Source of the DNA: Anaerolineales bacterium
GTDB taxonomy: Bacteria > Chloroflexota > Anaerolineae > Anaerolineales > UBA11858
DNA: 48,002 bases
Direction of reading: 5' to 3'
Assembly (NCBI GenBank): GCA_024763275.1
Contig: JANTFT010000016.1
Coordinates: 1 to 48,002, forward strand
Both the position numbers and the translations under genes were made by a program. Position 1 is the stretch's first letter. Every line of letters begins with the position of its first letter. The notes beneath the pieces were generated by a model. The model did no database searches and had not been told where the DNA came from. It was given only the letters and a program-made list of their open reading frames with translations. Of the stretch, positions 8,847 through 32,844 are shown piece by piece.

Positions 8847-9362
8847 TCAGACGAACACTATTTGAGCACCTTCCGTTAAATCCATGAACTCCATTGCCCC
8901 CAACACGGTCGCTCCCTCTACTAGATCGTCCACGGTCAACTTCATCATATCCATGGACATCTTGCAGCCGTAAACGTTGGCGCCAGCGTCGACCAGCAGC
9001 TTGACAAATTCGGCCACCGGGGGGAACCCCAGTTTCTTGATCTCGCCCCGCATCATCCAGGACGCCGCCCAGGACATGCCGGGCAGGGCTCCCAGCAGGG
9101 TGGGAATCCCAAACCAGGGATGCATATTGGGATTGCCGACAGTGGCCACACTGAGCTTGCCCATCTTCTTCTTAGTGATGATGTCCAGCCCCCAGAAGGT
9201 GAAGAACATTTCCACATCGATCCCGCTCATCCTGGCCGCATTGGCCAGGATCAGAGGAGGATAGGCCATGTCCAGAGAACCCTTGGAAGCTACCAGGGCC
9301 AGTTTTCTTCTGCCATTCGCAGCGGACGAACTTTGATGTAAGACCCGGGAAGGTTTTGCCAT
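8847..9362 (-). CDS. DsrE/DsrF/DrsH-like family protein
   Basis: A 171-residue protein, last gene of the leftward sqr operon. It matches the DsrE/F-like fold: KLALVASKGSLDMAYPPLILANAARMSGIDVEMFFTFWGLDI near the start, a hydrophobic MSWAASWMMRGE segment, and VDAGANVYGCKMSMDMM, whose cysteine is the usual persulfide-carrying residue. Family members pass sulfur as protein persulfide to TusE/DsrC-type partners, and such a partner is encoded immediately upstream. The first about 18 residues are poorly conserved and could be a later-start artefact. Confidence 0.85.
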   Translation of the reverse strand: MAKPSRVLHQSSSAANGRRKLALVASKGSLDMAYPPLILANAARMSGIDVEMFFTFWGLDIITKKKMGKLSVATVGNPNMHPWFGIPTLLGALPGMSWAASWMMRGEIKKLGFPPVAEFVKLLVDAGANVYGCKMSMDMMKLTVDDLVEGATVLGAMEFMDLTEGAQIVFV

Positions 9363-30666: not shown

Positions 30667-31095
30667 ATGCGTCTCTGGAGTTTGCACCCGGAAGTTCTCG
30701 ACAGCAAGGGGCTGGTGGCGTTGTGGCGTGAAGGGCTGCTGGCGCGTGCGGTGCTGGCCGAGCAGACCAAAGGCTACCGCCATCACCCGCAACTGGAGCG
30801 TTTCCGGGCGGCCGCCAACCCACTGGGGACCGTGGAAGCCTATCTCTGGGAAGTGGTTGCCGAAGCCGATCGGCGCGGCTATCGCTTCGACCGGCGCAAA
30901 CTCGCGCCGAGGCGCAATGTTCCGCCGCTTCCGGTGACAGAAGGACAGCTGGCTTACGAATGGGGGCATCTCCTGGCCAAACTGGCCGTCCGCGATCCCG
31001 TCCGCTGGCAGGCTCTCCAGGGCCAACGTCCGCGGCCGCATCCTCTTTTCGTGGTCGTGCCGGGCGATATTGCACCCTGGGAACGGACCGGCTGA
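30667..31095 (+). CDS. Pyrimidine-dimer DNA glycosylase family protein
   Basis: A 142-residue protein of the Pyr_excise family: MRLWSLHPEVLDSKGLVALWREGLLARAVLAEQTKGYRHHPQLERF is the characteristic N-terminal block, starting right at the initiator Met as in phage T4 endonuclease V relatives (catalytic N-terminus after Met removal). The family cuts at UV photoproducts, but many bacterial members of this length are only assigned by similarity. It lies between a CPBP-like protein and an SDR, the latter 36 nt downstream. Confidence 0.84.
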   Translation: MRLWSLHPEVLDSKGLVALWREGLLARAVLAEQTKGYRHHPQLERFRAAANPLGTVEAYLWEVVAEADRRGYRFDRRKLAPRRNVPPLPVTEGQLAYEWGHLLAKLAVRDPVRWQALQGQRPRPHPLFVVVPGDIAPWERTG

Positions 31096-31131: not shown

Positions 31132-31983
31132 ATGAACTTAAAAGATAAAGTCATCGTCATTACCGGTTCCACCCGTGGATTTGGCAACGCGGTGGCGCGC
31201 GCCGTGCTGGCCAAAGGGGCGCGGGTGCTGATTTCCGGCCGCAGACAGGTCGATGTAGATCGCGTGGTCGCTGAACTGGGCGAACGGACGGACGGCCTGG
31301 CCTGTGACGTCAGCGTCGCCGAACAGGTTTATACGCTGGCGCGCTTCGCCGCGGAGAAGTTCGGACGCATTAACGTGTGGGTCAACAACGCCGGCATCAC
31401 CCCTCCGCCCGGCGGCGTGCTGGACTTCCCGCCGGAAGAAGCCGAACGCGCCTTCCGCGTAAATTGCATCGGCACAGTCAACGGCACGCAGGCGGCGCTG
31501 GCCGTGATGAAGCCGCAGGGACACGGGACGATCGTCAACCTGTACGGGCGCGGCAGCGACCTGAAACCTACCACCCCGTCCGGACTGTATGGCGCGACCA
31601 AAGCCTGGATTACGTCCTTCACCCGCACCATGGCCGCCGAGTACAAAGACCTGCCCATCCAGTTCATCGGCTTCAGTCCCGGCATGATGACCACCGACAT
31701 GCTGAACGTCCATGAAGTGGTCGGCCAGGCGGTGGCCGATACCATGCGACGCTTCCCGATGGTGCTCAAGGCGCTGGGCAACCCGCCGGAAGTGCCAGCG
31801 GCTGAACTCGTCCGGCTGCTGGAGACCAACGACCAGCCCTTTGGGGAATATTTCTTCATGCGCGGGCTGCGACTGATGAAGATGCTCGCGCACCTGGCCT
31901 GGATGGGGATGAATAAGAAAGCCCGTCCGCCGGAAGCCGAATTGACCGTGCTGCCGCCCTTCGAGCCGCCTTTGGACGTTTGA
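31132..31983 (+). CDS. Short-chain dehydrogenase/reductase
   Basis: A 283-residue SDR from the ATG at 31132, 7 nt after AAGGAG; the ATG at 31099 belongs to the upstream spacer. Classical motifs are present: TGSTRGFG for NAD(P) binding, NNAG (WVNNAGITPPPGG), and YGATK with the catalytic Tyr and Lys. Arg in SGRRQVD after the second strand suggests NADP(H) preference. The substrate is unknown. Confidence 0.9.
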   Translation: MNLKDKVIVITGSTRGFGNAVARAVLAKGARVLISGRRQVDVDRVVAELGERTDGLACDVSVAEQVYTLARFAAEKFGRINVWVNNAGITPPPGGVLDFPPEEAERAFRVNCIGTVNGTQAALAVMKPQGHGTIVNLYGRGSDLKPTTPSGLYGATKAWITSFTRTMAAEYKDLPIQFIGFSPGMMTTDMLNVHEVVGQAVADTMRRFPMVLKALGNPPEVPAAELVRLLETNDQPFGEYFFMRGLRLMKMLAHLAWMGMNKKARPPEAELTVLPPFEPPLDV

Positions 31984-32160
31984 TGTCACTGCGAGGAGCG
32001 CAGCGACGAAGCCGTCTCTGGCCAAAGAGAGGAGATTGCTTCGCCCCTTCGGGGCTCGCAATGACATGGCCTTGTCATCGCGAGGGCGAAGCCCGAAGCG
32101 ATCTCCTGCACAGCCAGGTTGGAACTTGCTTCGCTCGCTAACGTTCACTCGCAATGAAAG
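31984..32160. repeat. Dispersed intergenic repeat cluster
   Basis: GTCACTGCGAGGAGCGCAGC, GGAGATTGCTTCG (32031-32043) and CTCGCAATGACAT (32055-32067), followed by an inverted related copy (GTCATCGCGAGGGCGAAGC), form palindromic units of a dispersed family. The same blocks recur inside the PEP-utilizing enzyme gene at 43049-43090 and, in part, at 41888. Fills the gap between two genes. Confidence 0.85.
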
Positions 32161-32175
32161 AAAGAGAGGTGCCCC

Positions 32176-32634
32176 ATGCCCAGAGTCTCCCTCACCACCC
32201 CCGCCCCGGATTTCGAACTGACCGATTTCCACGGACAGCCCGTCCGGCTTTCGGACTACCGCGGCCAGCGCGCGCTGCTGGTCTTCAACCGCGGCTTTGT
32301 TTGACCTTTCTGCCGCGCGCACATGGCGCAGTTGCGCCAGGACTACGAACAATTCCGCCAGGCGGACACAGTCATCCTGGTCATCGGCCCGGAAAAGGTC
32401 GAGGCCTTCGCAAAGTATTGGGAGGAGAACGACCTGCCCTTTATCGGCCTGCCCGACCCGAAGCACAGCGTACTGAAACTGTACGGGCAGGAAGTCAACC
32501 TGTTCAAGCTCGGACGCATGCCCGCCATGGTCATTGTGGACGCCGAGGGCGTGGTGCGCTTCGTGCACTACGGCCACAGCATGAGCGACATTCCGGGAAA
32601 TGCAGAGGTGCTGGAGACGCTGCACATTATTTAA
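32176..32634 (+). CDS. Peroxiredoxin-like selenoprotein (in-frame TGA at residue 43)
   Basis: A 152-residue AhpC/TSA-fold protein interrupted only by TGA at 32302-32304. Upstream: VSLTTPAPDFELTDFHGQPV, LSDYRGQRALLVFNRGFV; downstream: PFCRAHMAQLRQDY, ..., LGRMPAMVIVDAEGVVRFVHYG. In this peroxiredoxin-like family the motif is FxRGFxCPFCR, so TGA stands exactly where the first cysteine of CPFC belongs, giving a UxxC redox motif. A perfect hairpin with its loop about 25-29 nt after TGA fits a bacterial SECIS. The ATG at 32176 has AGAGAGG before it. A simple Cys-to-stop mutation or read error is the alternative; an internal start at 32323 would lose the active site. Confidence 0.82.
32302..32339 (+). 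promoter_or_regulatory. Putative bacterial SECIS element
   Basis: After TGA 32302-32304, TGGCGCA (32324-32330) and TGCGCCA (32333-32339) make a perfect 7-bp hairpin, effectively a 5-bp stem with loop CAGTTG. Its position is within the 16-37 nt range known for SelB-dependent elements, and the loop contains a GU as in known ones. Confidence 0.6.
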
Positions 32635-32661: not shown

Positions 32662-32844
32662 ATGAGCAGCGAGCTGACAGGACAACTGGGCAAGATGAGC
32701 CTGGAAGCGCTGCTGGGGCTAGGGCTGTTCCGTCTGCGGACGCGCTTCGGCCTGCTGGCCGCCGGCCGCGAACTGCTCATGAAGGAACTGCAGGGGGAAA
32801 TCAAAGCCCTGCGAAAACAGTTGCATGACCTGGGTTCCGTCTAA
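32662..32844 (+). CDS. Small coiled-coil protein related to the sensor tail
   Basis: A 60-residue protein with a weak AGGAAG site before ATG 32662. Residues 23-57 (RLRTRFGLLAAGRELLMKELQGEIKALRKQL) closely match the C-terminal coil of the next gene (LRRFALLAADRELRMKELGEENQALRERL). It ends 3 nt before that gene. It may be a mini-subunit that pairs with the sensor by coiled coil, or a leftover of duplication; it is too short to hold any other domain. Confidence 0.68.
   Translation: MSSELTGQLGKMSLEALLGLGLFRLRTRFGLLAAGRELLMKELQGEIKALRKQLHDLGSV

Follow-up and report, generated by a model that had tools for sequence, protein, structure and literature searches.

A predicted selenoprotein of the peroxiredoxin-like UxxC type and its SECIS hairpin in an Anaerolineales bacterium

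Does the TGA at position 32302 of an Anaerolineales contig end a gene, or is it read as selenocysteine (Sec) within one? We addressed this question in a window of 48,002 nucleotides (the whole stretch of DNA analyzed, contig C16), part of a 2.55 Mb draft genome of 98 contigs that is 90.7% complete. A prior sequence-only reading had proposed that this TGA stands at the first Cys of a CPFC motif in a peroxiredoxin-like (Prx-like) protein, that its flanks form one continuous family match, and that gene callers would report a 103-residue fragment from 32323. All of this was borne out.

A TGA within a peroxiredoxin-like gene

The reading frame extends from ATG 32176 to TAA 32632-32634, and its translation contains a single in-frame TGA and no other stop, yielding U-P-F-C at the motif (...NRGFV-U-PFCRAHMAQLR...). 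The joined protein gave one unbroken Pfam match across the TGA (PF00578 AhpC-TSA, residues 8-129, E 1.2e-25), and the ordinary ORF listing returned only the 103-aa piece from ATG 32323. The features of the locus are as follows:

32162..32169, + strand: probable ribosome binding site, a purine-rich AGAGAGG stretch a few bases 5' of ATG 32176, judged by reading the sequence
32176..32634, + strand: predicted Sec-containing Prx-like (AhpC/TSA fold) protein of 152 aa, translated with TGA as selenocysteine
32302..32304, + strand: predicted Sec codon (UGA), encoding U43 in the U-P-F-C motif, with the TGA shared by homologues
32311..32313, + strand: TGC, Cys46, predicted resolving Cys, an invariant residue aligning with the peroxidatic Cys of peroxiredoxins (PDB 2ywn/2cx3)
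32324..32339, + strand: predicted upper stem and apical loop of a bacterial SECIS, UGGCGC-AGUU-GCGCCA, from codon invariance, compensatory changes and shuffles

The sequence-only reading had tied its claim to the presence of selA, selB, selC (tRNA-Sec) and selD in the genome, and above all to selB and tRNA-Sec. All four were found: a tRNA-Sec with anticodon UCA (69.8 bits, also detected by ARAGORN), selB (306 bits, above its cut-off), selA (E 1.9e-162), and a selD that is a selenoprotein itself, with a TGA at its active site (SCAGUASK; G000:C4:44895-45827, - strand, locus L121). The same genome encodes a second Sec-containing Prx-like protein, a SelL-related protein (NF040769, 164.5 bits) with the motif G-U-L-P-C (G000:C26:9804-10346, - strand, locus L119). 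Taken with the comparisons below, the gene almost certainly encodes a selenoprotein, probably cytosolic, of the Prx-like thiol:disulfide oxidoreductase type, in which UGA 32302 would be translated as Sec through SelB and the downstream hairpin.

UGA is an ordinary stop elsewhere in the genome, since the short-chain dehydrogenase gene adjoining the Sec gene terminates with TGA (31981-31983). We also listed the TGA-spanning frames of the window and, besides the Sec gene, scanned one of them, a UxxC-like UFVC frame at 8849 (- strand); the DsrE-like domain there ends before the TGA, which was set aside as an ordinary stop. A promoter and terminator scan found nothing above chance, the sole terminator-like site being inside the shuffle range. 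Several other observations concern the surroundings of the gene. Short GCGAGGAGCGCAGCGACGAAGC-like stretches lie 5' of it at 31990-32140, and this pattern has only three matches in the genome at <=2 mismatches, two of them in that interval. A 60-aa ORF at 32662-32844 resembles, in its C-terminal half, the tail region of the 618-aa PAS protein next to it (common pattern LLAAxRELxMKELxxExxALRxxL), possibly a duplicated tail, and a pyrimidine dimer DNA glycosylase domain protein (PF03013) is encoded at 30667-31095.

Conservation of the Sec codon and of the hairpin

Among 99 homologous loci readable at the site, the codon was TGA in 94, TGC in three, TGT in one and TAA in one; the four loci with a Cys codon are L036, L037, L038 and L117. 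The in-frame UGA thus replaces the catalytic Cys of homologues, as in bacterial selenoproteins. About a third of the Anaerolineae genomes surveyed (79 of 249) carry the family at E <= 1e-25, with one TGA in 79 of the 80 matches; the remaining match is a fragment that starts at residue 67, after the site. Homologues, Syntrophaceae among them, come from Chloroflexota, Thermodesulfobacteriota, Actinomycetota and Bacillota; carriers include the culturable Longilinea arvoryzae and Levilinea saccharolytica. In the tree, where NCBI's labeling of 'Deltaproteobacteria' bins is unreliable, phylum groups cluster far more than under shuffled labels, yet imperfectly. Thirteen residues are invariant, with position 43 being Sec or Cys: F13, R39, Sec43, C46, P72, D94, Q105, G113, R114, P116, R128, D138 and P140. 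No gene cluster recurred at more than 13 of the 96 loci compared, and the neighborhood therefore offers no operon clue to a substrate or partner.

The form of the gene also followed the Sec machinery. Within a set of 61 relatives, selA was present in 16 of 17 genomes with the UGA form (the exception, G002, is 88% complete) and absent or broken in all three with the Cys form. Under random pairing, computed by hand, this has a probability of 4/1140 = 0.0035, a figure that does not represent independent cases because the three Cys-form genomes belong to one family. In one Cys-form carrier, selA is split by a frameshift into two overlapping frames (G021:C6:30365-31518), an apparent decay of the Sec trait.

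Two readings would remove Sec from this locus, and the comparison of homologues argues against both. In favor of an error in sequencing or assembly at the TGA, or of a nonsense pseudogene, the genome is a 98-contig draft with a single copy of the gene, and one relative, L116, is truly a pseudogene. The TAA at the Sec site of L116 (3001-3431) was considered as a new Sec codon and rejected, given the frameshifts in that locus. Yet a TGC or TGT misread at 32302, which the sequence-only reading had named as the finding that would overturn it, is incompatible with the data: well over 100 genomes, each sequenced independently, have the same TGA, which cannot be a read error. Moreover, the frame has no further lesion, and codon comparison on aligned columns indicated purifying selection in the parts 5' and 3' of the TGA (closest pair, L019/L020: dN/dS 0.215/1.16 before and 0.142/1.05 after). 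Comparison thus refutes this reading, to which we give next to no credence. We regard as equally improbable that UGA is an ordinary stop preceding a separate 103-aa protein from ATG 32323. Gene callers do see that ORF, but such a protein would split the active site, has no evident ribosome binding site 5' of 32323, and would begin at a Met50 that is Leu (CTG/TTG) in several homologues and in Thermomicrobium roseum; residues 5' of the TGA are conserved too.

Having set these readings aside in favor of Sec insertion, we turn to the predicted SECIS element. The perfect hairpin that the sequence-only reading had placed in the SECIS window was found at 32324-32339, with a 6 bp stem, a 4-nt loop (AGUU) located 25 nt after the UGA, and an energy of -10.0 kcal/mol. 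It agrees on every point with the published bSECIS model, which specifies a stem of 4-16 bp, a loop of 3-9 nt with a G in its first two positions, a UGA-to-loop spacing of 16-37 nt and an energy of at most -7.5 kcal/mol (PMC13188914). Alone, the hairpin would prove nothing, because its energy is ordinary and another fold is lower in the window's sequence. Its fold energy was not unusual for this GC-rich sequence (z about -0.3) and is by itself no evidence, since shuffles fold equally well. In the window's sequence the hairpin is not the minimum (-11.9 kcal/mol constrained vs -13.8 kcal/mol), the rival fold being 1.9 lower. An Rfam scan gave no match over threshold.

The comparative evidence for a SECIS hairpin, which supports the earlier placement, is strong. 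Codons within the predicted hairpin are near-fixed, at near 0 bits (Ala51 GCG in 84/86, Gln52 CAG in 85/85 and Leu53 TTG in 88/88), whereas at Ala and Leu columns elsewhere, where the residue is 80-100% conserved, codons vary freely at about 2 bits. The five loop-adjacent pairs are kept in 72 of 82 distinct sequences, compared with 8.1 +/- 2.7 (maximum 18) expected when codons are redrawn with the protein unchanged (synonymous shuffles). In a Bacillota clade (L094, L106 and L108), AUGGCGCAGUUGCGC has become AUGAUGCAGUUGCAU: G-C gave way to A-U and C-G to U-A, the cost to the protein being A51M and R54H. The T. roseum homologue has the identical 16 nt (L153 1649-1664) at 44% protein identity. 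Among the Cys forms, the hairpin codon pattern is gone in L036, L038 and L117, and part of it is kept in L037. As judged from these alignments, the predicted hairpin is under RNA-level selection, and its near-invariance across several phyla is the most notable additional finding of our analysis. The Cys46 codon is likewise TGC in 91 of 91 Sec homologues, though it lies outside the hairpin.

Predicted active site, function and family

The AlphaFold model (mean pLDDT 91) predicts a thioredoxin/peroxiredoxin-type fold, matching Bcp/AhpE peroxiredoxins at TM about 0.82-0.88 and ResA at TM about 0.74-0.86. In the alignment to Bcp structures (2ywn), Sec43 shares a column with the Thr of TxxC, and Cys46 with the peroxidatic Cys. 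The protein is probably cytosolic, since no signal peptide is apparent, nor any membrane anchor, on reading its sequence. We envisage that the hairpin at 32324-32339 would recruit SelB with Sec-tRNA(UCA) for decoding of UGA 32302 as Sec, and that Sec43 and Cys46, at the Thr and peroxidatic positions, would form a thioredoxin-style U-x-x-C site. The Sec43 selenolate may then attack a peroxide or a disulfide. Resolution by Cys46 may proceed through a selenenylsulfide, and reductants of the thioredoxin type may recycle the Sec43-Cys46 site.

Which of these substrates prevails bears on function only. A selenoprotein acting mainly as a peroxidase, that is, a true peroxiredoxin, would fit the closest folds by E-value (Bcp/PrxQ-type peroxiredoxins), the best sequence match among solved structures (Bcp) and the location of Cys46 at the peroxidatic position. 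However, Sec replaces the Thr of TxxC, ResA with its CxxC matches too by both sequence and fold, and the invariant Gly113-Arg114-x-Pro116 appears to resemble the cis-Pro loop of thioredoxin-type enzymes. We consider a mainly peroxidatic role somewhat unlikely; a thiol-disulfide oxidoreductase role is favored, with peroxidase activity possible.

Prx-like selenoproteins are, as the sequence-only reading had stated, already known and have been catalogued since 2004-2005 (PMC1088965, PMC1794560, PMC13188914). The family, whose motif is UxxC instead of TxxU, was described from the Sargasso Sea set (PMC1088965); Syntrophus aciditrophicus, Desulfotalea and Geobacter are given as having members (PMC1794560), and it appears as a UxxC/UxxU family (PF00578) in a 2026 catalogue (PMC13188914). 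The window's protein shares with the published Prx-like thiol:disulfide oxidoreductases the PF00578 domain and a UxxC motif with Sec first (here UPFC, with Sec at the Thr column of the 2ywn alignment). By domain and motif, it very probably belongs to this known family, of which WP_010940744.1 is the published exemplar. The published set has few Chloroflexota members, and in 2006 three Chloroflexi selenoproteins of any type were known.

Related families differ in specific respects. The SelL-related redox protein family (NF040769) has the same fold and UxxC position and is the best NCBIfam match, but the protein scored 82.6 bits, below the cut-off of 120, and the true member in the same genome is the separate ULPC protein. 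Sec-containing peroxiredoxins (TxxU) and Bcp share the AhpC/TSA fold, whereas here the motif is UxxC and Sec occupies the Thr position, not that of the peroxidatic Cys. The ResA/TlpA thiol-disulfide oxidoreductases, with CxxC at a helix start, have a similar fold, but the protein falls below their cut-off and, on reading its sequence, has no apparent signal peptide or membrane anchor. No NCBIfam model reached its cut-off for this protein, which may help explain poor annotation.

Annotation and significance

The gene is likely unreported in annotation, and the annotation problem for Sec-UGA homologues is real. The T. roseum RefSeq homologue (L153 1501-1947; NC_011961.1 545266-545712) is annotated as TRD_RS15230, a 42-residue "hypothetical protein" that ends exactly at the Sec UGA. 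It lies on a plasmid, on which no selA was found. Standard gene calling can thus cut a selenoprotein at its active site.

Tentatively, at a little short of an even chance, the UPFC group may form a separate subfamily, as yet unnamed, where one SECIS, fixed across several phyla, dictates the sequence of the helix following the active site (A-Q-L-R; in the Bacillota clade M-Q-L-H, via paired changes). If so, it would be a clear case of a recoding RNA shaping an enzyme. The alignment also offers a clean set of sequences for testing the constraint that a SECIS puts on the protein containing it.

The window's gene itself is a well-supported addition to a kind of selenoprotein known from many anaerobic bacteria. 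Anaerolineae are abundant, and most have yet to be cultured; counting the UPFC selenoprotein correctly changes what is predicted of the selenium dependence and the redox capacity of the anaerobes among them.
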